A DNA stretch of 22,621 bases from Chrysochromulina tobinii (Eukaryota; Haptophyta; Prymnesiales; Chrysochromulinaceae). A program made the position numbers and the translations under genes. How positions within the stretch are numbered: position 1 is the stretch's first letter; the number at the start of each line of letters is the position of its first letter. Shown in pieces: positions 3,774-22,621 of this stretch. The stretch lies in assembly GCA_001275005.1 (NCBI GenBank), contig JWZX01001983.1, forward strand, positions 1-22,621, written 5' to 3'. The notes beneath the pieces are model-generated. The model was not told where the DNA came from. It did no database searches and worked only from the letters and a program-made list of their open reading frames with translations.

Positions 3774-5353
3774 GAGTGCGCCGATGCAGCCAACGGCCAT
3801 AACGGTTGACGTGATGGCGAGCAGCGTCGGCTCATCATGTGAGAGCGAGCCGTTGACGAACTGGGCGGCCACGCTCGCGAGACGGCCCGAGGCAGCGAGG
3901 ACGGCCAGCGCGGTCGCGCGGACCTGAGGAGGGAGGCAATCAGAGGTCATCAGAGGCACGCACATGTCATCAGGGATACTCAGAGGTCATCAGAGGCAAT
4001 CCTACCTCGACGCCAAAGGCAATCAGAGGTCATCAGAGGTCATCATAGGCAATCAGAGGTCATCAGAGGTCATCAGAGGAGATCCTACCTCGACGCCAAA
4101 GGCAATCAGAGGTCATCAGAGGTCATCATAGGCAATCAGAGGTCATCAGAGGTCATCAGAGGCAATCCTACCTCGACGCCAAAGGCCTCTGTGGAGAGCA
4201 CATCGAGGGCGTTCCAACTCGCTGTCGACGTAGCGCTGAAGATGCATGCGGCGGCGATGACCATCTCACTTGAGCTCGTGTCCACCGCACCGAGCGCGAG
4301 CGCGGCGAGGGAAGCGGCGACCATCGAGCTCACAAGCAGCGTGCGACGTCCAATCGAATCGATGCAGAAGACAGAGAGCAGGTTGCCTGGGAGCATCGCG
4401 ACGGCATAGAGCAGTGCGACCAAGTACGGGTCGTGCACACCCGCGTGCGTCAGGAGAGTGGTGATCCAGGTCGAGAGGCCATAAGAGCCAAAGTTGAGCC
4501 CCGCCCACACGAGGCACAGCGGCAGCAGCGCCGCACGCTCCGCGGGAGCGCTCAGCGTCGTGAGCACTCGACGTAACGTCATCGGCTCCGCGGCGGGAGG
4601 TAGCGGCGAGGTAGGCTGGTCGGCGATCGAGTCGTTCAAGGACGTGGACGGGGAGATCTCCTGCGGGGAGATCTCCTGTGGAAGGCTCGGTGGGGTCAGG
4701 TTCACAGCCCATGCGAGCGTCGTCGAGATGGCGGGCACCACCGAGCAAGTGAGTGCAAACCCACGCCACGGCTCCGACCAGCCGAACGACGGGGGAGCGT
4801 CTGCAGAGCTGCCGAGCATCAGGAGGGCTAGAGCCGCCGCGATGACCGCTCCCACCATCCAAAAGGAGGCGACGATCGTGATGGCGGGGCCTGTGCGCCC
4901 CACGGGCGCATTCTCAGTCGCGAGTGCAAAGAGCGGCGGCGTGGCAGCACCAACGCCCGTACCAGCCAGCACCCGTAGGATCACCAATGAGGGCAGATTT
5001 GGCGCGAGAGCTGCCGACGCAGCCGCAACGAATGCGAGGGTGAGCGCCCACCTGAGGGCGTACGCACGGCCGACCGTGTCGGCGACAGCACCGCTCGCAA
5101 AGCCGCCAAAGAGCATCCCGACGAACACGCCTGCGGCGATTGCCGTCTGCCCGGCGGGATCGTCGCTCGCGCGCTGCAGAATGGACCCAGCGCTGAGCAC
5201 CTCGACCGCCTCGGCAGCATTGGCGAGACACAGGGTACCGTACACGAGGGAGAGTGGCGGGCGTCTCTCAGGTCTGGTCAACAGCGCATCGTGCTGGCCA
5301 GACCTGATCTCATCGACAGGGTGGGTGGCAGCATCTTCCGGTGCTGCCCTCAT
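3744..5353 (-). CDS. Major facilitator superfamily transporter (SVOP/sugar-transporter-like)
   Basis: The 453-aa membrane transporter is built from two exons, 5353-4172 and 3923-3744. The first ATG is at 5353; further upstream only a GTG is in frame. Hydrophobic segments fit about 12 helices. Motif A is visible as GAVADTVGRA (about residues 88-97) with a counterpart DSIGRR in the second half, and RVLAGTGVGAATPPL with TENAP matches the family's helix 4-5 region. A hydrophilic loop of about 45 residues with a duplicated QEIS separates the halves. Splicing after GTCGAG (4172) to GTCCGC (3923) gives EAFGVE|VRATAL, matching the family's conserved E-x-x-VRA-T motif before the last helices, which strongly supports the junction. 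The substrate is unknown; relatives carry sugars, organic ions or nicotinate. The last residues and stop come from a tandem repeat copy. The gene is divergent from the AAA ATPase gene. Confidence 0.88.
3924..4171 (-). repeat. Repeat-built intron of the MFS gene with triplicated donor
   Basis: This 248-nt phase-0 intron runs on the minus strand from GTAGGAT (4171) to CCCTCCTCAG (3924). It consists mainly of CTCTGATGACC, CTCTGATTGCC and CTATGATGACC units. An 83-bp period repeats the last exon bases (GCCTTTGGCGTCGAG) plus the donor GTAGGAT: the true junction is at 4165-4187 and two further copies lie at 4082-4104 and 3999-4021. The 3' end carries the same acceptor module (CTCTGATTGCCTCCCTC...CAG) found in the AAA and S28 introns. 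If unspliced, translation stops at 4136-4138. Use of either inner donor would keep that stop. Confidence 0.85.
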
Positions 5354-5644
5354 GTGGACGGTCGACCGGCTCAAGCTCCTGATGCGGGGCTGCTGCTGCA
5401 GGAGCCCCACTAGCTCTATGGCAACTATCCAGATGGCCGTCGTCTTGCTGGCGGTGGCCGCAAAGCGGGCCGCCCTCCTCTCGTGGTTTCGAGTGGGAGC
5501 CTTTACGAAGATTCCAGGAAAGCGAGCGCGAGATTCACTACGCCCAACAGGATCGATAGAACGAGTTCACATTACTGACCGTTCATGTCTCGGTACGTAC
5601 TCTTTTGCCTAGAATCTTTCACACTCGAGAATCCGCAGGCTTCG
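5354..5644. promoter_or_regulatory. Divergent intergenic region between the MFS and AAA genes
   Basis: About 290 bp separates two divergent start codons, so it should hold both promoters. I find no clear TATA box or other named element. An in-frame ATG at 5585 would extend the AAA protein by 20 residues, but the ATG at 5645 starts the hydrophobic presequence. Confidence 0.4.
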
Positions 5645-7987
5645 ATGGGGTTCCTGGCCCTATTAGCCGTGTTGCCCTCGCTGCATGGGTTTCGTCCATC
5701 GCCGACATGTCGTGGACGTGGAGTGCACGTCCGACGTGCACTCTACATGAACCTGCCACCATCCGTGCCGGAGGCCTCGCCCAGCACGGACAAGATTGAG
5801 GGCGTCGTGACTCCGGTCAACCCGTGGCTGGCCGCGCCGGGTGAGTCATTCAAGGAGGCCTTGTACACAAAGCCCAAGCTTCTCGAGAAGATGGAAGATG
5901 GCACCTTTTTTGAGCAGGAGAAGGAGGGAGATGGCACGTTTCAACCCGAGTTCGTCAGGTACGAGCGCCGGACCTTTATCGGTGAACGGGCGCCGCTCCC
6001 CGATCTGCTCAAGACGGTGGTTGAGGCGACGGAGGCAGCCATTGCCAATGTCAACGCGGGCGGTCAGGAGGCGTACGGTGACTGGATGGGCGACAAGGAG
6101 CGCCTCCAACTCATCGAGGCGCTCCGTGGGCTCCGCGGTCGTAAGCTCGTTTGGTGGCTCGATGCGCCGCGGCCGCTGCGCGTGGTGGCGGCGAGATCTG
6201 CCAAGTATGAGATCTCGATCGTGTGCCTGCCTCGTGGTCAGCAGCTGCCGCCGGCGGCCGTGCCCCGTGGCTCCGTCATCCTCTGCCAGCCGCTCCTCGG
6301 CCAGTTTGACGTGCGCCGGCTTCGATTCGACATCACCGGCAAGGCGTCCGTCGCCCCAATCGAGCTGATGAGACGTACACTCAGGTATGGCGACGTGAAG
6401 CTGGGAGCGCCGCATTGGGCGGGCTCTGATTGCCTCTGATGACCTCTGATTGCCTCCTTCATCAGGTATGGCGACGTGAAGCTGGGAGCGCCGCTGCTCC
6501 TCTCTGGGGGCAGCTGCCACGAGTTTGTTGGCAAGCCTGGGATCGCGTCGGCGTTCCTTCAGGTGGCCATGCTCCCTCCCACGTCCAATTTCCCACAGTG
6601 GGGCGACACGGGCGATGGGAGCATAGGGTGGAGACGTCCACCGGGCGAGACGACGGAACAGAATGACGATGTGGTGGCGGGGGTCGCGATCGGGGTGCAC
6701 GACGTGTCGGAGGTCCTCGAGATCGACCGACCGACCGAGGAGAGCCTAGCGAGGGAGCGCGAGCTCGACCGTGGCGCCTCCCCCTCAACGGCTCCGAAGC
6801 TCGTTGAGACCCTCGGCGAGCGCATCGGGGGCTTGGAAGGTCCGATCTGCGCGATCGTTCGACGGGCGCTCGCGTCGCGGCTCTATCCCCCGGAGATCAC
6901 ACGAGATCTCGGGATCAGCCCGGTGCGTGGGCTGCTTCTCTACGGCCCCCCCGGCTGTGGAAAGACGCTGCTCGCACGCGAGATCGCGGCCGCGATGGGC
7001 GCGCGCCCTCCGAAGATTGTCAACGGCCCCGAGATGATGTCCAAGTTCGTGGGGGCCTCTGAGGAGTTTGTGCGCGCGCTGTTTGCCGAGGCGGAGGCGG
7101 AACAGGCGGAGGCGGGCGACGCCTCCGCACTGCACGTGATCGTCTTTGACGAGATGGACGCGTTCACGCGCGAGCGTGGCAGTCTGACCGGCGACACCTC
7201 GGGCATCCGCGACTCGGTCGTCAATCAACTGCTCGCCAAGATGGATGGCATTGAGCAGCTCGACAACATTCTGGTCATCGGGATGACCAACCGACCCGAA
7301 CTCATGGACCCAGCGCTGCTACGCCCCGGCCGGCTCGAGGTGCAGGTCCTTGTGCCGCTGCCCGACAAGGACGGGCGCACGCGCATCCTCGGCATCCACT
7401 CGCGCCAGCTGCGCGAGCGCGGCTGCCTTGACGCACGTGCCGCCGCCGCGCTGAGCAGCGGCTCGCTCGCTCAGGTGAGTGTCGTTAATTGCCTCTGATT
7501 GCCTCTGATTGCCTCTGATTAGCGCAGCGGCTCGCTTGCTCAGGTCACCGAGGGCTACTCGGGCGCCGACCTCGCCGGGCTGCTCCGCGCCGCCGCATCG
7601 TACTCGTTAGAGCGCTACGTGGAGGAGGCCATGCTCTCAGGTGAGTGTCGTTAATTGCCTCTGATTGCCTCTGATTGCCTCTGATTGCCATCCGTGGAGG
7701 AGGCCATGCTCTCAGGCATCGCCCCAGGCGCGGCGTTGGACGCCAAGGCATCCAAGCGTCCGGTTTCGTCAGGGAGGCGGGGGCTGCTAGAGGTGCGCTA
7801 CAAAGATCTCGTGAGGGCGCTGCGCGAGACGCGGCCGACGGGGAGCTCCGCAACGCGCTCAGAGCTTGCCGAGGGCAGTGGGCGAGGTCTGATGGCCTCG
7901 CTCAGCCTGCGGGTGCGCGGTCTTCGACGCGAGGCGCAGCTGCACAAGCTGACGGAGCGTGCGATGGCTGGGTCGCGCGTAGCCTAA
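5645..7987 (+). CDS. NSF-like AAA ATPase with predicted plastid presequence
   Basis: Four exons (5645-6384, 6466-7474, 7544-7640, 7716-7987) encode 705 aa. The C-terminal half is a single AAA module closely resembling the D1 domain of N-ethylmaleimide-sensitive factor: [20 protein letters not shown], Walker A GPPGCGKT (407-414), [18 protein letters not shown], Walker B VIVFDEMD (Glu476), sensor 1 IGMTNR, and arginine fingers in [23 protein letters not shown] follows across the second intron. No D2 module or NSF-type N domain is visible. Residues about 60-260 are unrecognised. The N terminus ([20 protein letters not shown]) is a signal peptide followed by Phe and a basic, acid-poor stretch, the layout of secondary-plastid targeting. 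NSF normally disassembles SNARE complexes in the cytosol; a plastid role is inference. All three introns are repeat-built. An alternative start at 5585 adds 20 residues and would mask the signal. Confidence 0.85.
6385..6465 (+). repeat. AAA gene intron 1: repeat-built, donor inside duplicated exon
   Basis: The intron is 81 nt. A 33-bp stretch starting TCAGGTATGGCGACG occurs perfectly at 6381-6413 and 6462-6494, offset exactly by the intron length. The first copy supplies the donor (CAG|GTATGG). The intervening 48 nt holds CTCTGATTGCC and CTCTGATGACC units and ends in the acceptor module CCTTCATCAG. Retention gives a stop at 6437-6439. Splicing gives [15 protein letters not shown]. Confidence 0.88.
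7475..7543 (+). repeat. AAA gene intron 2: repeat-built, acceptor inside duplicated exon
   Basis: The intron is 69 nt and phase 0. It begins GTGAGTGTCGTTAATTGCC followed by TCTGATTGCC units. The last 20 bases repeat the end of the upstream exon: 7455-7476 matches 7524-7545 with one mismatch, offset 69. The acceptor CAG is therefore a copy of the exon's own CAG. Retention stops at 7496-7498. Splicing gives [16 protein letters not shown], the expected NSF-like continuation. Confidence 0.88.
7641..7715 (+). repeat. AAA gene intron 3: sister copy of intron 2
   Basis: The intron is 75 nt and phase 1. Its first 46 nt (7641-7686) are identical to those of intron 2 (7475-7520). A perfect 24-bp exon duplication (7618-7641 and 7693-7716, core GGAGGAGGCCATGCTCTCAG) supplies the acceptor. 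Retention gives a TAA at 7652-7654. Splicing gives [15 protein letters not shown]. Confidence 0.88.
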
Positions 7988-8463
7988 ACCCCACTGTTTG
8001 AAAGATAGTAAAATGTGCTTTGTGTTGAGATTCGGCGAATTGGTCCAATTTTCAAGTTTCGTCTCATTTCCCTTGAGTTGCCTTTCTTGTTTTAGATGAA
8101 GGCCGGGAGCCGTCCATCCTGTAACACATCCTCTCTCCGCGCAAAGAAAGGACGTCCATCGCTTCTCCGCGCAAAGAAAGGAGCCTGTCACAGGGAGCAA
8201 CGAGCAAGCAGTCCAACGCGCGCGCGCGCGCCGGACCCTCGAGAGGTACGAGACTGTGACCTCATGGCGTGCTCGTGCGCGCCGGCCCTTGTTGCCAACT
8301 CGAGAGCCGCCGGCCGGTGCCTCGAAGCGCCCTCGTGGAGCATGGCATGCTTCGCACCTTTGGGGCCTCGGGAGCCTGACTTTTTCTCCGATTGCGTGTC
8401 AGGGAAAGTCGGCCAACTCTCTCGCGCCGCCACAGCACTCGACGCCACCACCGCGCTGAACAA
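7988..8463. other. Spacer between AAA gene stop and ankyrin-ART gene start
   Basis: No gene seen. It contains a 19-bp direct repeat (TCTCCGCGCAAAGAAAGGA at 8134-8152 and 8164-8182), a GC dinucleotide run near 8219-8231 and a short palindrome AATTGGTCCAATT near 8038-8050. It should hold the 3' UTR of the AAA gene and the promoter of the next gene. No core promoter element stands out. Confidence 0.55.
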
Positions 8464-10722
8464 ATGGGTTCCGGAAGCTCCAAGTTTGTGATGGGCAAGG
8501 GTGTGTACAAGGCCGCATGGGACGGCAACGAGGCGGAGCTCAGGCGGCTGATCGGCCTTGGGTGGAGCGTCAACTGGCACAATCCTGAGGTGCGCCGCCG
8601 CATGTGCTTCGCATGGGCGCCCGCGGCGTCGTCGCCGCCTCTGCCTTCGGTCGCCCCCGCCGCGCCCGCCCGACACGGCGCCATTTTCCCCACAGCCCAG
8701 CTGCACGGCGCGCGGCGCGATTGGCGCGGCGGCGCTCGTCGCACCCCCGCGTGCTCGCTCATTCGTATCGCCCCCTTGGCCCTTGATGATGGCTCGTATG
8801 TGCGTCCAGGCATACGGACGCACAGCTCTGATGACGGCCTCATTGTACGGGCACGAAGGGTGCGTCCGCCTCCTCCTCGAGTCCGAGGCGATCGAGGTCA
8901 ACGCCACGGATGTAAGCCTCGAGCGTACACTTCCCCAAGCACATGCCATGGGTCAGCTTCCATTTCGTTGCTCTCCTCCCTTTATTGTCTTCTCCTCCCT
9001 TTGTTGTCTTCAGGACATCGGACGGTCAGCTCTGCATTGGGCGGCAGACTTCGGCCGCCTCGCGATCGCGAAGCGTCTCCTCGAACGAGGCGCGGATCTG
9101 ACGCTCCGTAACCGAGACCTGTACGGCAAGACGGCCCTCGACGACGCACGGAAGCAGGGCAAGAGCGAGGTCGTGGCTTTGTTGAGCGGGCCTCGGTACG
9201 CGGATGGAGACCGAACTGAATGCGAACTGAATGCGACTCGAATGCGAACCGAATGAAAACCGAAATGCGGGGAGGCGCCGTCTTGGGCGCACGCGGACCA
9301 GGGATTATCTGCCGCTCGGCGAACGAATCGTGGCGAGCTGCCATGGGATGCGGCCGAGAGGTCGCAGCGTCACGCCCTCTGGGGCGACACAGCGCCCCGC
9401 CATTCCACGCCCTTCACATTTGGCGACGGGTCCAGTACGACCGAATCCTACGCGCCATGGTGGGCACATCGGGAGTCGATGGCGGACTCGCGGCCTGGTT
9501 TGCCTCACTCATTGTGGCTGAGACCGGCCGCGCCGGCTGCGCTACAGACAGTGGCACCCCGACGCGCGCGCGCGCGCTCAGGCGCGCACTTGGACGCTCT
9601 CTGGCGCACTGATGAGCACGCACTCTGGCGCAATCATTGGCAATCATCGGCAATCATCGGCAATCAGCAGCACTCAGAAGCACTCAGGAGCCATCAGTCG
9701 CCCCACGCCGTCGCCCCACGCCGTCGTCCTCAGAGAGGGCGCTGCTGCCTCCACTGCCACTGACTGCCTTGCCATCATCCCAAGATGTGCGGTGCTCTCG
9801 CGCTTCGTGATTGCATTCGATGACGCGTCGTGCTGGGCGCCACTGCTCAGTGCCAACAGCGTGCGTATGCCCGTGCGTTCGAAACAGGTGGGACAAGGCG
9901 GCGGCGGCCGACAAGGCGGCGGCCGACAAGGCGGCGGCCGCGAAGGCGGCGGCCGCGAAGGTGGTGGCCGCGAAGGCGACGGCCGCGAAGGCGACGGCCG
10001 CGAAGGCGGCGGCGGAGAGTGTGGCCCAGCAGGCACGCATCGCCGACGTCGCTGACGAGCCGCTCGAGCTCATGGGCCCGATCACGGGTGTGATGAAGTG
10101 CGTGTGCTTGTCGCTCATGGACGCGGCGGCGGCGAGCGGCGTTGAAGACATCAACGCGCACGCCTTCATCGCGAGTAAGGCGGGGGCGCAGCTTGCCGCG
10201 GCCGATCCGCACGGCCTCGACGCGGACGAGGCGGGCGGGCTGTGGCTGTACACGGCAGAGAGCGACTTCTACCCGAAGCTCAACCGGCTGCTGCGCACAC
10301 GCGACCGCTCCGCACTCAAGCCCTTCTTCCCGTACCTGCAGCTGATGCTGACGGCGCGCAGCAAGCTGCCCAAGTACACCGGCTCCGTCTGGCGCGGCGT
10401 CAAGGGCGTCGACCTGCGCGCCCAGTACCCCAAGAACAAGGAGGTCTGGTGGTGGGCCTTCTCGTCGACGACCAAGCAGCTGCGTACGCTGACGAACCCG
10501 ATGTTCCTCGGCACCAGCGGCGTGCGCACCGTCTTCATGATCGAGATCGTGCACGGCGTCGACCTGCAGCGCTACTCGGCGTTCCAGGGCGTAGCGAGCG
10601 AGGCGGAGGTCCTGCTCTACCCAGGCACGAAGTTCAAGGTGGTCGACGCGATGGAGATGGGTGGCGGCCTCTTCCAGGTGCATCTGAGGGAGGTGCCGCT
10701 CACCGTCGCCCTCTTCAAGTGA
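8464..10722 (+). CDS. N-myristoylated ankyrin repeat / ADP-ribosyltransferase fusion
   Basis: I assemble 414 aa from exons 8464-8589, 8810-8911, 9014-9195 and 9888-10722. The start MGSGSSKF fits the N-myristoylation consensus (Gly2, Ser6, Lys7). Residues about 11-135 are four ankyrin units (YGRTALMTASLYGHEGCVRLL, GRSALHWAADFGRLAIAKRLL, YGKTALDDARKQGK), with introns falling between units in phase 0. A long Lys-Ala repeat (about 138-180; AAAAK units) looks like a rigid single helix. The C-terminal domain has the R-S-ExE signature of arginine-type mono-ADP-ribosyltransferases: VWRGV (Arg306), AFSSTT (Ser329) and SEAEV (Glu375, Glu377). It should transfer ADP-ribose from NAD+ to protein. The third intron (9196-9887, 692 nt) joins CCTCG|G in frame but is the least certain junction; two separate genes remain possible. 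Membrane anchoring is inference. Confidence 0.72.
9213..9268 (+). repeat. 11-nt GAACTGAATGC tandem repeat at the start of ART gene intron 3
   Basis: Units GAACTGAATGC, GAACTGAATGC, GACTCGAATGC, GAACCGAATG and a degenerate fifth follow each other 17 nt after the proposed donor at 9196. The period equals that of the CTCTGATTGCC family, but the sequence differs. Units hold CTGAAT or CCGAAT, close to a branch-point motif. Confidence 0.75.
9629..9725 (+). repeat. GGCAATCATC array inside ART gene intron 3
   Basis: Three to four units of GGCAATCATC/T are followed by CACTCAGAAG-type units (9671-9690) and a doubled GTCGCCCCACGCC (about 9698-9725). GGCAATCA is the reverse complement of TGATTGCC, so this resembles the intron repeat family in antisense orientation within a larger intron. 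Confidence 0.65.
9895..10014 (+). repeat. 15-nt AAGGCGGCGGCCGCG coding repeat (Lys-Ala helix)
   Basis: About eight units of 12-15 nt encode DKAAAADKAAADKAAAAK-type sequence in the linker of the ankyrin-ART protein. Variants KVVAA and KATAA show limited divergence. Confidence 0.85.
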
Positions 10723-11192
10723 GCGCGACGCCCGAGCACCTGTCGACGCTGCGCTGACGGGGCCGCATGGTGCATGCTGAGGGGCGGCCGCGTGCGGGGT
10801 GGGTCTGGGTGGTGCCTGGCAGCTCTCCGCACGTGCAGAGCAATGGAAAGTGTGTGCATCATATCTCGGAGTATGTGCGGTTCCGCAGGCGGGGCATGCG
10901 TGTCTGCGCGCCGCTCTCCTCCATTCTGACTTCAAACCCCATGTTTTCTAACCATACTTAGGCACAGGCGACAGGTCATGCAAACACAGCGAACCATTTT
11001 CACATGAACCATTTTCACATGCGCGCGGCATTGCGCATTCTCCAGGTTCAGGTCAGACTCGTCTGTATTCCGCGAGTGTCTGAATTCTCTGCCGAGATCA
11101 TCTCAGCCGCCTGCCAGCCCTCCGGGCCAGCTCATCTCGATCTCGATCTCGATTGGGCCTAGAGGAGAGGATGCACACTTCTGAGTCGCCGC
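10723..11192. other. Spacer between convergent ART and helicase genes
   Basis: No gene seen. It holds both 3' ends. A perfect 15-bp tandem duplication (GAACCATTTTCACAT at 10991-11005 and 11006-11020) and a TCTCGA run at about 11134-11152 are the only structures I can point to. Confidence 0.6.
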
Positions 11193-12833
11193 TCACCACC
11201 ATTGCTTCCCGCCGCCGCCCTTGCCCTTGCCGCCGCCCTTGCCTTTGAAGCCCTTGCCCTTCCCTCCACCGCCGCCGCCGCGCTGTGCCATCATGGAGAG
11301 CTCGGCCGGCACCACCTGCCCGGCATCGCTCAGAATACGCACGAGCTCGCGCGCATGCTTCGAATCGCCGTTGGTGAAGAGCGTGTCGGCGACGCCAGTC
11401 GCGCCCGCACGCCCCGTGCGCCCGATGCGATGAATATAGTCCTCAGAGCCTCCATCGCCGGGCGGGTAGTCGTAGTTGATGACGTGGCCGATGCCGTTGA
11501 TATCGAGGCCACGCGCGGCGACGTCGGTCGCGATGACCATCGTTAGCTGCCCCGCGCGGAATCGCTCGATGACCGACTCGCGCTCGCGCTGGGTGCGATC
11601 TCCAGAGAGCGTGTCGACGGGCAGCTGGTGATCCCAGCAGTACTGGCCGATCGCGTTGACATCCCTCTTCGTGTTCGCAAAGATGATGACGCGAGTGCCC
11701 ACGGCGGCGCCGCCTGCCTTATAGGGCGCGAGTAGCTCGACGAAAGCTTCCCACTTGGCAGCGGGCTGCACGAGCCGTACATGCTGGACGACAGCCTTGT
11801 TGGCTGTGAGCTTGTCGCCGCCCGAGCCAACCGTCACCTTGACTTGGGACGGGCCGAGCAGGTCCGCGGCGACGCGCTGCACCGCCTTGGGCCACGTGGC
11901 CGTGAACAGAAACGTCTGGCGACCCTCGGGCATCTTGGCCACGATCGCGCGAATATCCTTCTCGAAGCCCATGTCGAGCATCCGATCGGCCTCGTCGAGC
12001 ACGAGCATCGAGCACATCTCGAGGCTCGTCGCGGCGCCGCCGTAGCTCGTGCCGTGCAGGTCGAGCATGTCCATCATGCGCCCGGGCGTCGCGATCAGGA
12101 TCTCGGCGCCGCGAGATAGCTCCGAGATCTGCTTCCACTTTGGGTCGCCGCCGTAGACGGCGACGGCGCGGATCTGGAGCGGCGCCCCAAATTTGGTCGC
12201 CTCGCCCTTGATCTGCAGCGCAAGCTCGCGCGTTGGCGCCATCACGAGGCAGAGCGGCTTGCCGGCGGCCTTCTCCCAATGCAGCTGCGCGCGGGAGAGC
12301 GCGGGCAAGAGATAGCCGAGCGTCTTGCCCGAGCCGGTCTTGGCGATCGCGAGGACATCCTTGCCGGCCATCGCAATCGGCCACGAGGCGCCCTGCACCG
12401 CCGAGGGCATCGAGAAGCCCTGCTGCATCAGCAGCTGCACGAGCGGCGCCGGAAAGGGCGCGGCCGCGAGGCTCGTGCACGGCGACTGATGCTCGGCCGA
12501 GTGGATGGTGATCTCGTTCGCCTGCATAAAGGTGCATGCCGCCTCGAAGTCGTCGACCTTGGCGAGTGGCTTCGAGCCATGCTCGATGCTGATCTCCTCA
12601 CCCGACCCGGAGGTGCCACTCTCAGCCGAGGATGCAGGCCCTGCGGCAGCTTCTGCGGCACGCTTCTGCATCTTGGCCTCCTTGCGCGCGCGCGCGCGCG
12701 CGCCGCGCTTGGCGTCCGCGTCGTCGTCGTCACCGCCGCCAAGGCGAGCGCGCTTGGGCTTCGGTGAGGCATTCACCACCTCTGTGCTCTTCACGGCCAT
12801 GTCGTTGGCGGACTCGATGCGCTTCAGTCCCAT
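11193..12833 (-). CDS. DEAD-box ATP-dependent RNA helicase (Dbp2/DDX5-like)
   Basis: The 546-aa protein lies in one exon. All helicase motifs are present: the Q-motif region with FSMPSAVQ (140-147), motif I AKTGSGKT (164-171), Ia PTRELAL (200-206), Ib TPGR (249-252), II DEAD (280-283), III as TAT rather than SAT (311-313) followed by WPKAVQ, IV VIIFANTKRD, V TDVAARGLDI, and VI HRIGRTGR (468-475). It unwinds or remodels RNA with ATP. FTATWPKAVQ resembles the Dbp2/p68 branch (ribosome biogenesis, mRNP remodelling), but orthology is not proven. A basic N terminus with PKPKRARL suggests nuclear import, and the tail is a Gly/Lys low-complexity segment (KGKGFKGKGGG) typical of RNA binding. I chose the ATG at 12833; the frame extends 16 codons upstream only to a TTG. 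It is convergent with the ART gene. Confidence 0.95.
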   Translation of the reverse strand: MGLKRIESANDMAVKSTEVVNASPKPKRARLGGGDDDDADAKRGARARARKEAKMQKRAAEAAAGPASSAESGTSGSGEEISIEHGSKPLAKVDDFEAACTFMQANEITIHSAEHQSPCTSLAAAPFPAPLVQLLMQQGFSMPSAVQGASWPIAMAGKDVLAIAKTGSGKTLGYLLPALSRAQLHWEKAAGKPLCLVMAPTRELALQIKGEATKFGAPLQIRAVAVYGGDPKWKQISELSRGAEILIATPGRMMDMLDLHGTSYGGAATSLEMCSMLVLDEADRMLDMGFEKDIRAIVAKMPEGRQTFLFTATWPKAVQRVAADLLGPSQVKVTVGSGGDKLTANKAVVQHVRLVQPAAKWEAFVELLAPYKAGGAAVGTRVIIFANTKRDVNAIGQYCWDHQLPVDTLSGDRTQRERESVIERFRAGQLTMVIATDVAARGLDINGIGHVINYDYPPGDGGSEDYIHRIGRTGRAGATGVADTLFTNGDSKHARELVRILSDAGQVVPAELSMMAQRGGGGGGKGKGFKGKGGGKGKGGGGKQWW

Positions 12834-13399
12834 GTTGAGATGCAGATGCAAAGAAGCGCAACGGGGTTCAGAGCCTTCCAAGCGCGACGTCGCCGGGGGT
12901 GTCGTGTTGCAGCCCCTGAGGAATTCTCAGGTGTGACATTTTTGTTGTTTAGTTCCCTTCTCATGGTTCCCTTTCGTCCACCACGGCATGAGACCCGCGA
13001 CGTCCCGAGCGGCGAGAACGCAGACGGTCACCGCCATCCGGGTGGCATCCGCGCTTGTCCGCGCGCGTGCTGGTGTAAAACGCCTGGAGGATCGGGTGAC
13101 AGTTCAGGGCACTGGTGTGCTCGGCAATGTGCATGGGGTACACATGAAAATCAACCTTTGATAAATAATGACCGGCAAGCGGCATGAACATGTTCGGAGC
13201 AATGACGCCCGTCCGGAACGATGCGAGCGAGCGCCGCAGGGGCATGCGCAGGGGGCGCATATCGAAAAGCTGGCTTCCTCGCGTACGGAAACGTTCTCAC
13301 GTGTCCACGCCGTGAACGGTACTGAACAAGTGTGACTCACACAGCCGTTAGCCTCGCGCGCCCAAACCAAACCTTCCCTGAAGCTCGAGGAGTCCGAGG
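12834..13399. other. Spacer upstream of the helicase gene
   Basis: No supported gene. Frames of up to about 115 codons on both strands lack motifs and overlap each other. It contains the helicase promoter and the 3' flank of the small orphan gene. The stretch 13130-13180 (TTGATAAATAATGACC) is AT-richer than its surroundings. Confidence 0.5.
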
Positions 13400-13951
13400 T
13401 CATGTGCCGCCTCCGCCACTCAGCAATCTCGCAGCCAGCGTCCCAGCAAAGCGACCCTTATTCGCGAGAGTGTGCGACGCCACCGTAGCAGCACCTGCGC
13501 TCTCAGCCGGCGGCTTCCGCGGCGCCGCTGCAGGCACAATGCGTGCTGCAGGCTCGGCTGAGGCCTCGGCGCTCATCGCCGTCTCCTCCTTTTGCTGGCG
13601 CTTTGCAGCTTTTCCGCTCACCTGTGGTCCCGGCTGGGCGACTCCCGCGCCCGCTTCAAGTGCGCTACCCTCGTGCTTGCGCTTACCAAGCAACTTCTTG
13701 TGCGAGCGCGACGTGCCAAACTCCACATGCGCGTCCCAGAGCGCCTCAAATGTTGGCTGGAAGTCCTCGTCGGAGAGTGGCAAATAGTGAGACGCTTGAG
13801 CAAGTCCCTGGCCGTTGTAGTGTTTGGCCAGCGGCTGTTCTACGCGGCCGATAATCTTGTCCGCCTGCAGTTGTGGCATGGGCACGCTAATCATTTTCTG
13901 GCGTGCCGGCGGCATCGAGGCCTTGGGCGCCTTCGGAGTGTTTTTCCCCAT
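13400..13951 (-). CDS. Small basic protein of unknown function
   Basis: The 183-aa ORF has a clear ATG and high-GC coding character. I do not recognise a family. The N-terminal half looks conserved-like and globular (ISVPMPQLQADKIIGRVEQP, GLAQASHYLPLSDEDF, LWDAHVEFGT), followed by a basic cluster KKLLGKRKH (85-93) that could be a nuclear localisation signal. The C-terminal half is Ala/Pro/Lys-rich and probably disordered. It sits on the same strand as the helicase with a 566-bp gap, so co-transcription is unlikely. A role in the nucleus or nucleolus is only a guess from composition. Confidence 0.6.
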   Translation of the reverse strand: MGKNTPKAPKASMPPARQKMISVPMPQLQADKIIGRVEQPLAKHYNGQGLAQASHYLPLSDEDFQPTFEALWDAHVEFGTSRSHKKLLGKRKHEGSALEAGAGVAQPGPQVSGKAAKRQQKEETAMSAEASAEPAARIVPAAAPRKPPAESAGAATVASHTLANKGRFAGTLAARLLSGGGGT

Positions 13952-14236
13952 CGTCTTTTTCTTGTGAACTCCGAAGAGGGTGTGAACGAAACTTGCGAAA
14001 CACCGTGAAAAATTCCATCTCTAACATGGGCATACAAGTACGGCATGCGCGCACACACACGACGTCACGTCGCTCAACATTCACTGCTGTGAAAGACTCT
14101 CAACCGCTACATGGCTGTGGATTTGTTTGCGCCGCCGGATGTCTTGGGCGTTGTAGTGGGCGCCGCCGACGACCCGGTGCCGGTGGCCAGAAGCGGAGCG
14201 ACCGTCCCCAACGCGCGCCTCATCCGTGGCGTCATC
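13952..14236 (+). other. Spacer with a doubtful short plus-strand ORF from 14111
   Basis: An ATG at 14111 opens a frame reading MAVDLFAPPDVLGVVVGAA and continuing through the downstream 15-bp repeat, where it reads DLVSR repeatedly. It then runs antisense over the next gene, which is normal shadow behaviour. On the minus strand the same bases read as a Thr/Ser/Gly-rich frame ending at 14108-14110. Third-position GC does not favour either, so I do not call a gene. Confidence 0.25.
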
Positions 14237-14326
14237 GATCTGGTCTCACGAGATCTGGTCTCGCGAGATCTGGTCTCGCGAGATCTGGACTCGCGAGATC
14301 TGGTCTCGCGAGATCTGGTCTCGCCT
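14237..14326. repeat. 15-bp GATCTGGTCTCGCGA tandem repeat, six copies
   Basis: Six head-to-tail copies have only three substitutions: A for G in copy 1, A for T in copy 4, and the last base of copy 6. The unit contains the palindromes TCGCGA and, across junctions, AGATCT, so the array can also fold. It lies just beyond the stop of the minus-strand secreted orphan, in its presumed 3' UTR. Confidence 0.95.
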
Positions 14327-14347
14327 CCCCTTTCTCAGACGACAAGG

Positions 14348-15508
14348 TCATTGGAAGATGAGCGAGTAGGAGCGGAGCATGCCGGCGACGGCCTTCTCCG
14401 TCAGATGCGCCTGCCCATCGCCAAGCGTGTGCATGCGGCTCAGAAAGTCCGCACGCTCGACCGTCGCACCCCCTACCGACGCAGCCGTACTCAAATAGCG
14501 TACGAGGGCATCGCGGCGCTGCCCGACGGCCTGGGCGTGGTAGATGAGGACGGAGCCGGCGCGGTTGAGCGACGAGAGTGCAGGCGCGAGCGCGAGCTCC
14601 TCGGCGCACCAGTGGCTTGCATGCACGTGCACCACCGCACGCTCGGCCCGCGCCCCACGCAACACGTGCAGCTCGAGCGTCGAGCGCAGCGGGTGGTACT
14701 GGTTCCAGAGGGCGCCGTAGAAGGAGCGCACGACCTGCTCGACGAGCGCGCGCCGCGTCGCGTACGTCTCGGCGTACTGCAGCATCCACTTGAGGTGCTC
14801 ACTTCCGACGAACTCGGGAGCAATGAGCCGAAGGAGCAGTGACGCTTGAGCCTCCTCCGGCGCAGCGCCTAGAAGGAGATCAGACGGCTGGCCGACGGCG
14901 GCGGCGAGCTGCGCGACGGCGGCGGCGTCGATGCACGAGAAGAACTTGCCGCCCACATCGTGCAGCCGCTGCAGCCAGCCTTCGAAGAGGCGAGTCGTCT
15001 CCGCTTGACCGATCTGACGCTCGCCCACGTGTTCGAGCACCGTAAGAGCGAGCGCGAACTCGCCCAGGTCGCCGCCGTACGCATACAGACCGACACGTGC
15101 GTGGCGGCCATCGACGCACGCGAAGCCTGCCGCGTCCAGGGGCACCCAGTCGACCGCGCTCGCTGGGCCGACGATGGCCATCAGCTGGTCCGGCGAGAGC
15201 GCCCGATGCGCAGGCGCGTACACGGTCTGGTTGGAGAACTCGACGTCGCTCGGCTGCGTCGGCACGGTGGGCGAGCCGCCCTGCTGGGGCAACGGCTCGA
15301 CCATGAGCGCGTGCTGCGCGCTCGCGCCCGAGCTTAGAGCCTTGCCGCTGAAGACCTGCTCAGGCGAAGGGTTCGTACTCGAGTACGAGGTCTCATTGAG
15401 GCCCGCGCAGCGCGACTGGCAGTGAAGCGTGACGGACGAGGTCTCGCAGCGCTCCGCGCGCGCCGACGCGGCCAAAGAGAGGAGCAGGAAGCTGGCAATG
15501 GCGCGCAT
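14348..15508 (-). CDS. Secreted protein of unknown function with CVDGR...GGDLGEF motif
   Basis: The 386-aa protein starts with a good signal peptide (MRAIASFLLLSLAASARA) from the ATG at 15508. An upstream ATG at 15574 would add 22 basic residues and weaken the signal. A Cys-containing N-terminal part (ERCETSS...HCQSRC) and a Ser/Pro linker precede a probably globular domain. The standout motif is FACVDGRHARVGLYAYGGDLGEF (Cys131), which recalls the CVDGR...PGG segment of cadmium-type carbonic anhydrases. Candidate further metal ligands are His238 (VGSEHLKW) and the later HASHWC cluster, but their spacing does not match the carbonic anhydrase pattern I remember, so the assignment stays a hypothesis. 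It is divergent from the S28 peptidase gene, with about 200 bp between starts. It acts in the secretory route or outside the cell. Confidence 0.7.
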   Translation of the reverse strand: MRAIASFLLLSLAASARAERCETSSVTLHCQSRCAGLNETSYSSTNPSPEQVFSGKALSSGASAQHALMVEPLPQQGGSPTVPTQPSDVEFSNQTVYAPAHRALSPDQLMAIVGPASAVDWVPLDAAGFACVDGRHARVGLYAYGGDLGEFALALTVLEHVGERQIGQAETTRLFEGWLQRLHDVGGKFFSCIDAAAVAQLAAAVGQPSDLLLGAAPEEAQASLLLRLIAPEFVGSEHLKWMLQYAETYATRRALVEQVVRSFYGALWNQYHPLRSTLELHVLRGARAERAVVHVHASHWCAEELALAPALSSLNRAGSVLIYHAQAVGQRRDALVRYLSTAASVGGATVERADFLSRMHTLGDGQAHLTEKAVAGMLRSYSLIFQ

Positions 15509-15707
15509 CCCTGCTTCCGAGGGCGCGGCCTTGAGGATAAGGGTCTCCCTCCTCACCTTGCGCTTTGTGAACATTTGTCAACGTCTGTGAACAATTGGAG
15601 CTTGTGCGTGTCAGAAGTCACACAGAACATTCACATTCACACACGCACAGTGCAGGTGGACCCGTGTTCGCGTTCGGCTTCCGCAGCGCAAGCGCTTGTC
15701 GCACGAA
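15509..15707. promoter_or_regulatory. Short divergent promoter region
   Basis: Only 199 bp separates the divergent start codons of the CVDGR-motif protein and the S28 peptidase, two secreted proteins. Shared regulation is possible. A run of ACATTCACATTCACACACGC (about 15626-15645) is the only distinctive sequence; no TATA box is seen. Confidence 0.4.
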
Positions 15708-17973
15708 ATGTTCGGAGACGCCGGCTTCCTATTGCTCGCCGCCGTATCCATCGTTTCCGCTACGCTGCCGCCGCGCCCCATAGGCGGCTGGCGGCAGGCC
15801 GAGGTGGTGCCGGGCCGGCCTTCGACGGCGAACTGCACGTGGAAAAACTTTACACAGAAGATCGACCATTTTGGCGTCGCCACCGGCACGTTTCCTCAGC
15901 GCCTGTGCATCTACGACAAGTGGTGGAAATCGGCGACACGAGCTGGCTTCAGCGCAGCCGCCGACGCACCAGGCCCGATTCTCTTCTACACGGGCAACGA
16001 GTCACCGGTTGAGGAGTACATCAACAACACGGGGCTCATGTGGGAGATTGCCGAGCAAATGGGCGCGCTGATCGTGTTCGCTGAGCACCGCTTCGAGCCG
16101 CTGTCCCACCCTGCGCTGTGCGGCCACGGCACGCAAAAGTGCTTCGCCTTCTGCACCACCGCCCAGGCGATCGCCGACTGGGCCACGATCATCGCCGACT
16201 TGCGCACGCAGCACACCGTCCGTGCGCCCGCCGTGGCGTTCGGGGGCAGCTACGGCGGCATGATTGCGGGCTGGTTCCGCATCAAGTACCCCGAGGTTAT
16301 TGACGGCGTGATCGCGGCGTCCGCGCCGATCTGGCAGCTCGCGGGCACGGTCCAGCGCGAGACGCTCGACATGCAAGCGGTCGCCATCACCCGCGGCGTG
16401 AGCGCCGCCGGCGGGGCCACCGACCAATGCCGCGACAACCTGATCGCGGCGTGGCCGCTGCTCCATGAGCTCGGCAAGTCGGTGGACGGCCTCAAGCTGG
16501 TTTCCGAGCCGGTCAAGGCATGCTCGGGCACGCTCAAGAGCGTGGATAGCCTCATTAGCTGGGCGCAGGGCCCTTATTTCTACCTCGCCGAAGGCAACTA
16601 CCCTTTCCCTAGCGACTACATCACCTTCTCCCTGCGCCCCGGCAACCCGCCACCGCTGCCCGCGTGGCCGATGCGCGTCGCGTGCGAGCAGGGCCTGAAC
16701 CGCGACTTCGGGGTCCAGCTGCGCGGCTCGGTGCGCGACGTTCGTTACAGCGTGCCTCTGATGAGGACCTCTGATGATGACCTCTGATTGCCTCCCTCAT
16801 CAGGTGCGCGACGTTCGTTACAGCGTGAGCCTGGGCGCGCTCCACGCCGACGTCGACTGGCGTGACATCTCTGGCAACGGAGCCACGCTGACGAACGACG
16901 AGATCGTGAGCTCGGGGATATTGGACTTGGCGAAGGCGGTCGCAGACGCGGCGGGCGTGTGGTACAATCTGACCAAGGACGTCACGTGCAACAACTTTGG
17001 GGGCGCGGCCGACGTGACCAAATTTGGACTGGGCCGTGGGCTGGGCCGGAGCGGCGCCCGTCACGGCGCTCGCTCGAGCGTGCTCTCAGCACGGAAGATG
17101 AGCGCGGCGAGCTCTCACGACGTGGCCACGACGCTTACGGTAGCTGAGCTCAAGCCCGAGCTCAAGCCCGAGCTCAAGCCCGAGCTCAAGCCCGAGCTCA
17201 AGCCCGAGCTCAAGCCCGAGCTCAAGCCCGAGCTCAAGCCCGAGCTCAAGCCCGAGCTCAAGCCCGAGCTCAAGCCCGAGCTCAAGCCCGAGCTCAAGGC
17301 GGACCCACCGCCGGTGCCGGGGGGCCAGCTGTGCCCGACGTGTCCGCCGTGCGAAGGTTGCCCTGTGTGCCCCGTGCAGTACTGCAACGTGACGCAGACC
17401 GCCGAGTGCTCGCATTCGGGCGAGCTCGACAAGACCTTCTCGTGGGACGGTATCTGCTGCAACGACGCCCTCTCGCAGATCGATATCCATGGGGTCGGGA
17501 GAGACATTTTCTGGCCGCCACAGCCCGCCTTCCGCAACTACACCGTCGAGAGCGTGGTCGGCCCACACGGGCTGCGCCCGGGCTGGTGTGCGTCCGAGTA
17601 TGGGCGTGACGGCCTGTACGGCGCCCCTCTGATTACAGACTTGTGGTCGACTTGGATGGAGGCGTATTACGGTGGGCGCGATCACATCACTGAGCACACG
17701 AACATCGTCTGGAGCAACGGCGCACTCGATCCTTGGTCCGGTCAGGGCGTCTACCCGCCAGGCGGAGGGCCTGAAGTCGGGAAGCCCATGGTGCAGAACA
17801 TCAGCGCCGACGGCTCCCAGTTCGCCCTCATCCTCGACCTCGGGGCCCATCATTTGGATCTCATGTTCACGGACGCACGCAACCCGCCGTGCTTCTTCGA
17901 GGCGAGGGCGATTGAAGAGCGCGCGATTCGTCAATGGTGCCAGCAAGCGTACGACACGCACGCGCCGTCGTGA
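15708..17973 (+). CDS. Serine carboxypeptidase S28 family (Pro-X carboxypeptidase/DPP II-like)
   Basis: Two exons (15708-16730, 16804-17973) encode 730 aa. The ATG at 15708 opens a hydrophobic signal segment (GFLLLAAVSIVSATLP). S28 peptidases are lysosomal/vacuolar or secreted enzymes that cleave after proline. Landmarks are FTQKIDHFG, ILFYTGNE, VFAEHRFEP, nucleophile elbow GGSYGG (Ser181), IVWSNGALDPWSG (Asp650) and GAHHLDL (catalytic His, about 690). The length exceeds the usual 450-520 aa because an insert separates CNNFGGAAD from YCNVTQTAEC. It holds a Gly/Arg-rich stretch, twelve ELKP repeats and a CPTCPPCEGCPVCP cluster. That insert could instead be an in-frame intron: 17014-17379 (GTGACC...GTGCAG, 366 nt) or 17140-17379 (240 nt), both stop-free and phase 0. 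Splicing would restore a more typical length (608 or 650 aa). Confidence 0.9.
16731..16803 (+). repeat. S28 gene intron: repeat-built, donor inside duplicated exon
   Basis: The intron is 73 nt and phase 0. A 25-bp duplication (16730-16754 and 16803-16827, starting GGTGCGCGACG) is offset by the intron length; the first copy provides the donor (TCG|GTGCGC). The 48 nt between copies carry CTCTGATGA/CTCTGATTGCC units and the acceptor module CTCCCTCATCAG shared with AAA intron 1 and the MFS intron. Retention stops at 16785-16787. Splicing gives RGS|VRDVRYSVSLGALHAD. Confidence 0.9.
17146..17298 (+). repeat. 12-bp GAGCTCAAGCCC tandem repeat, 12 perfect copies
   Basis: Twelve identical units (17146-17289) plus a partial thirteenth (GAGCTCAAG) encode ELKP repeats inside the S28 peptidase. 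The absence of any substitution points to recent expansion, ongoing homogenisation, or strong constraint. Confidence 0.97.
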
Positions 17974-18738: not shown

Positions 18739-19154
18739 GAGTTCAAAATCAGGTGGTGCTGGTGGAGATAGTGTGTCAATCCAGAAATACCACCTCCCCC
18801 TGCAGCCTACCCCTTTGGGCCAATCACGGAGTTCAAAATCAGAGTGATGGACAGATGGAGGGCCGGGTAGAGTGTGAATCCAGTTCCAGATTGAAACAGA
18901 ATACCTCCCCGCCTGCACCGTTTGGCATCAAATTGATCGGATCAAACGACGATCACATTCACAATGCGGGAGGGCTTATTTCTGGATTGTCAACACATTG
19001 ATGTATCCCCACCACCTGATTTTGAACCGTCAGTGATTCATACACATAAGGGAAAGGGGAGTGGGCTGGAGGGGACCGGCTATTTCTGGATTCACGCACG
19101 CACTATCCCTAGCAATTGATCCCTAGTTCCCTACCACCTGGATTTCGAACTCAG
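18739..19154. mobile_element. Cluster of inverted MITE-like copies ending in GAGTTCAAAATCAG / AATCCAGAAATA
   Basis: At least four related copies of about 50-74 bp occur in both orientations: plus at 18739-18789 and 18829-18890, minus at 18977-19027 and 19081-19154. A shorter related piece lies near 18518-18545. One end is GAGTTCAAAATCAGGTGGT and the other is ATAGTGTGT..AATCCAGAAATA. The copies at 18739 and 18977 are clear inverted repeats about 190 bp apart, so the whole could fold or be a nested non-autonomous element. No transposase is present and target-site duplications are not obvious. The rest of 18187-19235 holds no gene. A TTCTTC-rich tract at about 19172-19203 lies 3' of the next gene. 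Confidence 0.6.
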
Positions 19155-19235
19155 GGAGAGGGTGCGGTCAGCTTCTTGATTCTTCTTCTTCGACTTCTTC
19201 TCCTAACGCTGTTGGCATTTTGGTCCGCATCGCCG

Positions 19236-22200: not shown

Positions 22201-22621
22201 CCGTCGTCGTGCGTGGCCGCGGGATCATAAGCAGCCGTGCGTGAGTCCGTGCAGCCGCCGATGCCCACGCAGGTGCCATCATCCACCACGGCGAACACGC
22301 GGTAGTTGAGCGCGCGAGAGTCGGTGCAGCCGCCAGGTGGGGGACGGGGCGGCGGCGGCGACGGAGCCGGAGGCCGTGGCGGAGAGGGCGGGGGCGGACT
22401 GGGCGGAGGAGGCGAGGGCGGTGGTGACGGCGGAGGAGCGTACGGCGGGTACGGCGGAGGTGGCGATTGTGGCGGTGATGGAGGGGGGCTTGGGGGCGGC
22501 GGAGAAGGAGGCGGTGACGGAGGGGGTGGCGAGGGCGGCGGTGAGGGCGGCGGGGGCGAAGGCGGAGGCGAGTGGCGGAGGCGTTGATGGTGGCGGTGAT
22601 GGTGGAGGCGGCGATGGCGGT
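19236..22621 (-). CDS. Large surface protein: Cys-rich repeats, Pro-rich spacers, one TM helix (5'-partial)
   Basis: The frame is open from the right edge to the TGA at 19236, over 1,100 codons; its start lies outside. N to C: a Pro/Ser-rich stretch (22600-22340), then 15 repeats of about 24 residues on GC(T/M/L)D(S/P)xAxNYxxxA(T/N)xxDGSC (22330-21100). Next come a long SPPPP region (21095-20630), a domain (VASVKMAVVVAGGVPDF...VLTITSAPAA; 20620-20225) with repeated RLRELT(E/D) and MPPAMLG, a transmembrane helix (VGIIIGWVCLGVVVLLLTCY; about 20125-20060) and a tail of about 270 residues with repeated GAVSPxGLYA and RLPPIxTTxW. This is a type I surface protein; SPPPP tracts recall hydroxyproline-rich pherophorin/extensin-type proteins. 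The Cys repeat resembles GCTDPTAxNYxPxAxxDDGSC modules seen in secreted bacterial and algal proteins; binding is unknown. At about 22572 the Pro-rich frame shifts by one base, suggesting an indel or exon edge. Confidence 0.85.
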   Translation of the reverse strand, partial: RHRRLHHHRHHQRLRHSPPPSPPPPSPPPSPPPPSPPPSPPPPSPPPSPPQSPPPPYPPYAPPPSPPPSPPPPSPPPPSPPRPPAPSPPPPRPPPGGCTDSRALNYRVFAVVDDGTCVGIGGCTDSRTAAYDPAATHDDGSCPPLILGCVDSTAENYRVAATIDDSTCQYTGCLDTTALNFNPSATSNALCTYRVPGCMDSMADSYHPGANVHVIHQCTYLGCTDGFALNFNTNATTNDGSCVAVFAGCMNPSASNFANVSYNVDCGCCRFPGCADSVSSNYNVNAAFHVASMCAAGRRQLQSSGSASCLDPGALNYDSAGMAHANAACMFPIYGCTESTNLYYVAGANTHNQSMCAPPTIYGCLEPTALNYQANATIQRKSDCVYAYPGCMDPTAHNYDSEANVPNGICYYPVLGCTNPTASNYNALATASDGSCAFHVVGCTATTARNYAHDATVSSEQAVSLSMTQFTTAQLQTAVCVYDTPGCTAPIAVNYNSLATLDNGSCFMYSPPPNPPPPALPPSPPLYPPKVPPPPPPPPPSPPPASPSPPALPPSTPPPPPPPSPPPSSPSPPLPPPPPSPPRLPFSPPSLAPKSPEPLPPLSIPPPPPSALSPSPSMPPAILGMPPAMLGMPPPPSPPPSPPSPSPPPPSPPPSPPPPSPPPPALPIVASVKMAVVVAGGVPDFTPTVRLELRSAVANQASVALSAVTLDVTPVTRLRELTETRLRELTDARLRELRRELQGSSVLLTFTIAVETAAAAATAVSALSPHLANATAASTFLTTTSYTATVLTITSAPAAAYPPPSPPPPSPPREETSFASTALRTASDETMRVGIIIGWVCLGVVVLLLTCYCVNRFSLHAVNKVAPTPAVAGRARSKSFRTTTSNPDTNSQTTTSNVRRPAVGLGQQGRLVFVGSRVASGVSPGVARAAPRAMSSAEPASVPTAMGDWPPQTSYSRNGAVSPRGLYADVRPDGDRRRSTELDGAVSPHGLYAGQHTGSQSISVRPAPQFVVPADVSAGQLFVIGGQCYRVASPDPTWPPGLSPWPPSAPYDLARVAHRRPTHLHGRRAPVFPSERRIERLPPIVTTRWDGPTSAVELDGHVLDRRRLPPISTTYWHDPSPGILPDR
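20411..20480 (-). repeat. 24-bp coding repeat (RLRELT(E/D)), about three copies
   Basis: Plus-strand units GCTCGCGCAATCTCGxxTCC start at 20411, 20435 and 20459. On the coding strand they read TRLRELTE, TRLRELTD and ARLREL just before LRRELQG. Confidence 0.9.
20719..20775 (-). repeat. 21-bp coding repeat (MPPAxLG), 2.7 copies
   Basis: Units GGAGGCATGCCTAACATGGC start at 20719, 20740 and 20761 within the Pro-rich region. They encode MPPAILG, MPPAMLG and MPP. Confidence 0.9.

Follow-up and report, generated by a model that had tools for sequence, protein, structure and literature searches.

Introduction

The birth of spliceosomal introns is a long-standing question, and few genomes permit it to be watched. 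The closest described systems are introners, or introner-like elements, which are known from Micromonas and Aureococcus and were surveyed in 175 genomes by Gozashti et al. 2022 (PMC9860276). The earlier families carry repeats of 3–9 bp, similarity was sought near both splice boundaries, and low-complexity families were excluded from the main survey. Introners of Amoebophrya show 3–5-nt repeats, inverted repeats, hairpins, and non-canonical splice sites (PMC7789003). Introns ascribed to the repair of staggered double-strand breaks in Daphnia pulex include 33 with repeats of 4–12 bp (PMC4202315), the tandem genomic duplication of AGGT segments is reviewed in PMC3443670, and direct repeats of 4–30 bp (mean 11.4) were found at or near the borders of each of 213 introns (PMC11782384). 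Here, we describe a family of introns in the haptophyte Chrysochromulina tobinii, whose bodies are arrays of a 10-nt unit, CTCTGATNRC, and which probably spreads by the insertion of copied intron fragments into exons. The family was recognized in a 22,621-nt stretch (contig JWZX01001983.1 of assembly GCA_001275005.1, forward strand), hereafter the window, for which a first-pass annotation had proposed five introner-like introns in three unrelated genes. Haptophyte introns have been called repeat-rich.

Results

The Repeat Family and Its Orientation in the Genome

The assembly (53.15 Mb, 2,253 contigs) was scanned for the intron patterns with reversed patterns as controls, each of the tandem copies in one intron being counted. 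Arrays of the kind seen in the window were found throughout: paired units occurred at 3,872 places (1,945 + 1,927; reversed control 1), the 3′ splice end followed by an exon GT (CTCCCTCATCAGGT) at 1,208 places (570 + 638; control 0), the unit joined to the 3′ end at 115 + 102 places (control 0), and the 5′ head GTGAGTGTCGTTAATTGCC at 168 places with three mismatches or fewer (83 + 85; control 2). Unit-array and 3′-end patterns gave no match in viral contigs, and neither did the unit array in bacterial and archaeal genomes.

The unit itself had been given as 11 nt and must be corrected to 10 nt, as the 11-mer overlaps the next unit by one C. This explains why a scan of the assembly for an 11 + 11-nt pattern matched at 19 places only. 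Among 76 distinct arrays, the commonest units were CTCTGATGAC (150), CTCTGATTGC (111), and CTCTGATGGC (85), and CTCTGAT words were spaced by 10 nt in 207 cases and by 11 nt in 43, other values being rarer. The body is short of AG (42 versus 183 expected) and GT (23 versus 374 expected), and contains 0.90 CTNAY words per 10 nt, or about one every 11 nt, which we infer to serve as branch sites. With so few GT and AG and such frequent CTNAY words, many different fragments of the body could work as introns.

The orientation of 89 arrays was called using a codon model trained on four genes of the window, which was right for 173 of 181 windows of those genes. The sense bias proposed from the five introns was borne out by 63 sense calls and 1 antisense call among the 64 arrays with coding-like flanks, a set that contains the training genes and loci chosen by the 3′-end pattern. 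A subset defined by the unit pattern only (35 arrays, from the contigs that hold the first 100 paired-unit places listed) comprised 22 arrays with coding-like flanks, 21 sense and 1 antisense, and 13 without; an earlier version using cruder flanks had given 18 sense, 2 antisense, and 15 unclear. The sole antisense call lay in an array-dense stretch of one contig (C33), with flank scores of −9 versus 0 and 6 versus 7. The flanks of the other 25 of the 89 arrays were not coding-like, and some arrays may accordingly lie between genes. A decayed array, GGCAATCATCGGCAATCATC, at about 9630–9700 of the window consists of CTGATTGCC-like minus-strand units between apparent plus-strand genes; it is possibly a relic, antisense or intergenic, that breaks the sense rule.

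The Five Introns of the Window

All five introns were located where the first-pass annotation had placed them, with GT..AG ends (Table 1). The duplications assigned to the four short introns are present, and in each the offset between the two copies equals the intron length exactly. For the intron of the MFS gene, a duplication of at least 15 bp had been claimed; the last 15 exon bases are indeed found twice more within this intron, which shows 83-bp periods. A second correction concerns the four short introns, which differ in layout: in the 7475 and 7641 introns the upstream exon is duplicated and the insert supplies the GT, while in the 6385 and 16731 introns the downstream exon is duplicated and the insert supplies the AG. 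Predicted RNA structures of these four introns were no better than those of shuffled sequences (z = 0.01, 0.75, 0.64, and −1.25). A search of the assembly for a donor of the 6385 tag ATTGGGCGGGCTCTGATTGCC gave none with fewer than three mismatches, and 12 other places all at three.

Table 1. Introns of the CTCTGATNRC family in the window and their parts.
Feature	Positions	Strand	Remarks
Intron, MFS/sugar-transporter-like gene	3924..4171	-	248 nt; GT..AG; body of 10-nt units; 3′ end CTCCCTCCTCAG; spliced frame open
Exon end GCCTTTGGCGTCGAG, MFS gene	4172..4186	-	Original copy of the duplicated piece
Exon piece GCCTTTGGCGTCGAG, copy 2	4089..4103	-	Within the intron, 83 bp along
Exon piece GCCTTTGGCGTCGAG, copy 3	4006..4020	-	Within the intron, a further 83 bp along
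Intron, AAA ATPase gene	6385..6465	+	81 nt; layout B (AG from insert)
Duplication of 6385 intron, copy 1	6381..6413	+	33 bp
Insert of 6385 intron	6414..6461	+	ATTGGGCGGG + three units + CTCCTTCA
Duplication of 6385 intron, copy 2	6462..6494	+	33 bp
Intron, AAA ATPase gene	7475..7543	+	69 nt; layout A (GT from insert); join in AAA lid domain
Duplication of 7475 intron, copy 1	7455..7476	+	22 bp
Duplication of 7475 intron, copy 2	7524..7545	+	22 bp, one mismatch; holds the 3′ splice site
Intron, AAA ATPase gene	7641..7715	+	75 nt; layout A; 5′ head GTGAGTGTCGTTAATTGCC in common with 7475 intron
Duplication of 7641 intron, copy 1	7618..7641	+	24 bp
Duplication of 7641 intron, copy 2	7693..7716	+	24 bp
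Intron, peptidase S28 gene	16731..16803	+	73 nt; layout B; 3′ end CTCTGATTGCCTCCCTCATCAG
Duplication of 16731 intron, copy 1	16730..16754	+	25 bp
Duplication of 16731 intron, copy 2	16803..16827	+	25 bp

Exon Duplications and Three Splice-Site Layouts

Flanking duplications were scored for 84 arrays, five of the 89 being too near a sequence end, and 38 exceeded the 99th percentile of 1,260 swapped-flank pairs. The same control was exceeded by 13 of 32 arrays in the unit-pattern-only subset. The 6385, 7475, and 7641 introns of the window are among the 38; the MFS array failed, and the 16731 intron stood outside the set for having too few full units. A similar result was obtained from the 5′ heads, where 26 of 38 sites, some of them tandem and not independent, carried a duplication above the control’s 99% value of 13; the overlapping loci L095, L096, and L101 were skipped and one of the 39 heads was too short. 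In a separate test, 16 of 30 sites exceeded the control’s 95% value of 9.0, this control being spoilt by tandem arrays (maximum 60).

The duplicated exon stretch (D) encloses the insert in three ways. In layout A, D is followed by a GT-headed 5′ fragment and D again, and the acceptor comes from the duplicate. In layout B, a 3′ fragment ending in CTCCCTCATCAG or similar stands between the two copies, and the donor comes from the duplicate. In layout C, the insert is taken from the interior of the body; AG|GT lies within D, and the duplicate provides both splice sites. Among the 32 strong duplications (score of at least 16), GT..AG was found at the exact offset in 21 (9 of layout B, 5 of A, and 7 of C), and GC..AG in four, three of these at one locus. 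Strong duplications were 16–55 bp long (median 26.5; 31 of 32 not above 42 bp) in a search window of 130–170 nt; the score cut determines the lower length, and a less strict one also brings out cases of 13 bp. AGGT occurs in 7.4% of random exon segments of equal lengths, a control that suits layout C only. Separately, a 42-bp duplication around a 28-nt body insert was observed near position 960 of locus L053. No splice pair fits it, and its right flank is non-coding-like; it is possibly an insertion outside splicing selection.

The variable 5′ junction of layout B exhibited microhomology of 2.17 nt, against 0.47 nt for swapped exons (p = 8e-5; 17 scorable of 34 junctions). Three of 37 rows had been dropped as tandem before this run; a first run that included them gave 2.36 versus 0.42 nt (22 of 37). 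Junctions with too few matches in the array pool were unscorable (17 of 34 for layout B and 10 of 21 for layout A). Insert starts were found at every unit phase with mild clustering of the boundaries, start phases 1–2 accounting for 13 of 33 and end phases 8–9 for 11 of 21 partly redundant rows. We considered that inserts might break at the branch-like CTGAT, as a lariat would, and some phase clustering exists; the idea was dropped because microhomology could equally let GC-rich exons anneal at these positions.

Tracing of Putative Donor Introns by Shared Tags

Two sets of introns carry tags that seem to come from the exon next to a parent intron. In a gene on contig C289 (locus L078), which we take to be Lon-like from its motifs, three introns have the tag CGATTACTCTGATGATGACC in common. 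The exon adjoining the third intron reads GACCGATTAC, and the two copies of its duplication differ at 3 of 40 bases, whereas the 28-bp duplication of the second intron is perfect. The third intron is hence likely to be the parent and the other two its copies. CAG|GTGCTC, which includes four exon bases past the GT, is likewise common to all three.

The other set is centered on contig C858 (locus L124), where a five-fold array (three of its units exact, two with one change) is followed by an apparent exon that starts with GTGCTCCTCACCCTGA; this apparent exon reads GTGCTCCTCACCCTGACGGAG, its frame being judged by eye. Sequence bearing GTGCTCCTCACCCTGATGACC also occurs on contigs C176 (three places), C373 (three), and C2244 (two), where the exon that follows, as far as seen, has no more than the first 7 bases in common with the tag. 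The tag on these three contigs was apparently derived from the C858 exon. At C2244 and at one of the C373 places, the insert occupies an existing join, with CATCAG on one side and GTGC on the other, a position that homology at the join would be expected to give. At about 90–300 of the locus, the C858 array presents five 42-nt intron units in tandem, each with a GT start and a CAG end, as nested alternative introns.

Host Proteins across the Joins

The first-pass annotation had argued that conserved protein motifs are restored when the introns are removed. This was found for the S28, AAA, and Lon-like genes, on the evidence of colinear or indel-free homologue alignments and motifs, and in all the protein was restored or open in four genes. 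The spliced transporter matches the Pfam families Sugar_tr and MFS_1; its Sugar_tr match (residues 70–420) crosses the join at about residue 396, a position counted by hand, the first residue of the query having been altered for this match. For the spliced S28 protein, 582 relatives were detected at E 0.001 or better among 7,999 candidates scored, and the 40 homologues aligned, from a list of 120, are all free of indels at the join. Emiliania huxleyi shows 73% identity over 45% of this protein. The in-frame coding repeat ELKP occurs in many copies at about 17150–17300 of the window, in the S28 gene, and in few in a relative (P0001), its length varying between relatives.

Both AAA and AAA_lid_3 are matched by the spliced AAA protein, and the 7475 join falls in the AAA_lid_3 match (residues 580–610). 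The protein was aligned with 17 homologues. P0121, a 93% identical relative, is colinear over all three joins and has the same length (705 aa) as the spliced protein, with compensating indels near both ends. P0122, which is 95% identical, is colinear over the 6385 join and stops at the 7475 join, its C-terminus QVSVVNCL being an exact read-through of the 7475 intron of the window. It represents either a relative’s transcript retaining this intron, or genomic DNA with the 7475 intron and without the 6385 intron. The other 15 homologues are colinear at the 7475 join, have gaps near the 7641 join, and have a shorter loop a few residues past the 6385 join. Named relatives of the AAA protein include entries with names beginning Scypho (62%) and Prymne (59%), which, like the E. 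huxleyi match of S28, indicate a haptophyte. At the AAA N-terminus (5587–5760 of the window), the frame differs from that of P0122 and an AAWVSS stretch lies in another frame; given this difference, the start of the gene may contain a further intron or indels.

Other Features of the Window

A U1 spliceosomal RNA gene was detected on the minus strand at 1867–2023 (89.9 bits, cut-off 69.5), whose start, ATACTTACCTG, matches CAG|GTAAGT donors. The minus strand of 19150–22621 holds an open frame (1,127 aa) whose product has proline-rich stretches as well as many cysteine repeats of the GCxDxxAxNYxxxATxDDGSC type. A CTCGACA-type tandem array, unrelated to the intron unit, lies between genes at about 1438–1692.

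Discussion

Origin of the Introns

The genome-wide copies, the sense bias, the duplications, the restored proteins, and the putative parental tags together support the earlier suggestion that the introns were recently gained at AG|G-type sites, through insertion or templated duplication. With moderate confidence, we consider that these predicted spliceosomal introns arose when fragments copied from existing introns, all belonging to one repeat family, were inserted by repair or template switching. An exon would be opened by a staggered break or a replication pause, and repair synthesis would jump, usually via microhomology (0 to about 5 nt), into an intron with a CTCTGATNRC body at another site, which may lie in the same gene or on a different contig. 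After a stretch had been copied, a jump back would leave the fragment flanked on both sides by the same few tens of bp of exon. Selection would then retain those events in which GT and AG are exactly one duplication offset apart, since an intron of that length would leave the mRNA unchanged. A 5′ fragment would bring the GT and find its AG where the second exon copy ends; a 3′ fragment would bring the AG and use a GT at the start of the first copy; and an internal fragment would take both from the exon copies. One type of event, fragment copying into staggered or re-copied exon sites followed by splicing selection, could thus cover all three layouts. A DNA template, used in patch repair or template switching, is preferred over RNA because either end of the donor can be intact and because, in a few cases, homology at the join seems to reach into the parent’s exon. 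A bolder reading, which we put forward tentatively as a possibility and no further, is that the 10-nt repeat is a replicator without ends or machinery of its own: almost any fragment of it would be spliceable, host repair and splicing selection alone would drive its spread, and the tags would name the parents.

Several observations weigh against fragment copying from DNA. Among the strong duplications, 7 of 32 lack a splice-consistent pair; microhomology in layout A was not significant (1.08 versus 0.47 nt, p = 0.06; 11 scorable of 21, some tandem); and the clustering of insert boundaries is unexpected from random breaks unless microhomology accounts for it. A preference for local donors, examined through the longest stretch shared between arrays, was not significant for 72 same-contig pairs against 3,583 other pairs (p = 0.11). 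No duplication above control was found for 46 of 84 arrays. Moreover, reverse transcriptases are encoded in the genome (PF00078 gave 26 matches, of which 22 exceed the cut-off). Contig C176 (locus L066) carries, beside one variant, two exact full-length copies in a layout that puts no selection on the insert ends, and these two suit an excised intron unit at least as well.

These last two points bear on the main rival, an excised intron RNA as the template. In this process, the nicked end of an exon would prime reverse transcription of the RNA, truncation would leave variable ends, and staggered nicks would make the duplication. The machinery exists in the genome, the arrays lie in the sense orientation, and in layout B the 3′ end of the intron is fixed and the 5′ end varies, as in 5′-truncated retrocopies. 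The polarity is opposite in layout A, with a fixed 5′ and a variable 3′ end, and the internal fragments of layout C (7 of 32) have neither end. The four exon bases beyond the GT in the Lon-like trio also argue for DNA, weakly, since GTGCTC occurs at 9 of 86 such sites, the three Lon-like ones included. We regard the RNA route as rather unlikely on balance. A non-autonomous DNA transposon, a MITE-like introner whose transposase made the duplications, has the precedent of DNA transposition signs in many introner families elsewhere (PMC9860276). The 3′ end TCATCAG is the reverse complement of CTGATGA in the unit and might be a relic of inverted ends; this 7-nt complement between unit and 3′ end is the only one, the ends do not form a fixed pair, as one or the other can be missing, inserts start at all unit phases, and the strong duplications of at least 16 bp contrast with the 3–9 bp of earlier introner families. 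We consider a transposon very improbable.

If the segments were instead ordinary old introns with minisatellite expansion, in which tandem duplication later spread exon pieces, the arrays lacking a duplication above control would be readily understood, and local expansion evidently does occur, as in the 83-bp periods of the MFS intron and the five 42-bp units on C858. Such an origin is hard to reconcile with common 3′ ends at 1,208 places and 5′ heads at 168, with an apparently exon-derived tag on other contigs, and with duplications, some perfect, that span the splice join; we give it little credence. That the segments are gene-disabling insertions or assembly artefacts rather than introns is barely conceivable: P0122 reads into the 7475 intron, which can evidently go unspliced, and against this stand the GT..AG pairs at the exact offset in 21 of 32 strong duplications, the sense bias of 63 to 1, and proteins restored or open in four genes.

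The family is of interest because 38 of 84 arrays still keep their exon duplications, two intron sets share an apparently exon-derived tag pointing to a parent, and a target duplication is turned into splice sites by three routes within one family. Simple counts can thereby test whether DNA or RNA is the template, what geometry the breaks have, and what part splicing selection plays.

Comparison with Known Systems of Intron Gain

The first-pass annotation matched the introns to no class familiar to it, and this agrees with the survey sections cited here, in which introner repeats are 3–9 bp and low-complexity families were filtered out (PMC9860276); a family of the CTCTGATNRC kind would likely have been lost by that filter, and surveys dropping low-complexity introns may overlook a class of intron gain. 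In a literature search limited to an open-licence library, no matching introns were noticed among the entries listed. The present analysis adds the 10-nt unit, three layouts within one family, duplications mostly not above about 42 bp, junction microhomology, and donor tracing.

Unlike a miniature inverted-repeat transposable element (MITE) or another DNA transposon, the family has no terminal inverted repeats at fixed ends. The fixed 3′ and variable 5′ end of non-long-terminal-repeat (non-LTR) retrocopies made by target-primed reverse transcription (TPRT) is seen in layout B and reversed in layout A. L1-type retrocopies show variable truncation, microhomology, and variable target duplications, all of which recur here; unlike them, the inserts are truncated at either end, have no tail, and come from a set of introns.

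The exon repeat at the opposite end of the intron resembles the staggered-break repair gains of Daphnia, the break itself being hypothetical in our case; the repeats here are longer and the source is a multi-copy family, of which the relevant passages on Daphnia name none (PMC4202315). In layout C, an AG|GT exon duplicate gives both splice sites and the offset equals the intron length, as in tandem genomic duplication (PMC3443670), whereas here a copied intron piece separates the duplicates, and the insert contributes one of the splice sites in layouts A and B. Border repeats of this size are not unique to the CTCTGATNRC family, given their general occurrence in the introns of PMC11782384; what differs is that ours enclose the inserts of a single multi-copy family, and that offset and intron length agree. 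The introners of Amoebophrya likewise have direct repeats at exon/intron borders and have spread in one genome; in contrast to them, the window introns are GT..AG, and the four short ones have no structure beyond that of shuffles (PMC7789003).

With introners in general (PMC9860276), the family shares many similar introns in different genes of one genome (1,208 3′ ends and 168 5′ heads), enrichment in genes with sense orientation (63 of 64), an mRNA length that usually remains unchanged, and a target duplication that may provide the 5′, the 3′, or both splice sites. It departs from the introner families compared in lacking one or both donor ends, in combining three layouts within a single family, and in having a minisatellite as its body. 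The family sequence reaches one boundary (layouts A and B) or neither (layout C), the rest being exon duplicate, and the 32 strong duplications are 16–55 bp rather than 3–9 bp, shorter repeats in other arrays being indistinguishable from chance. The system thus works like introner-driven gain, and differs from the described families in two of their features, the short duplication and the similarity towards both ends.

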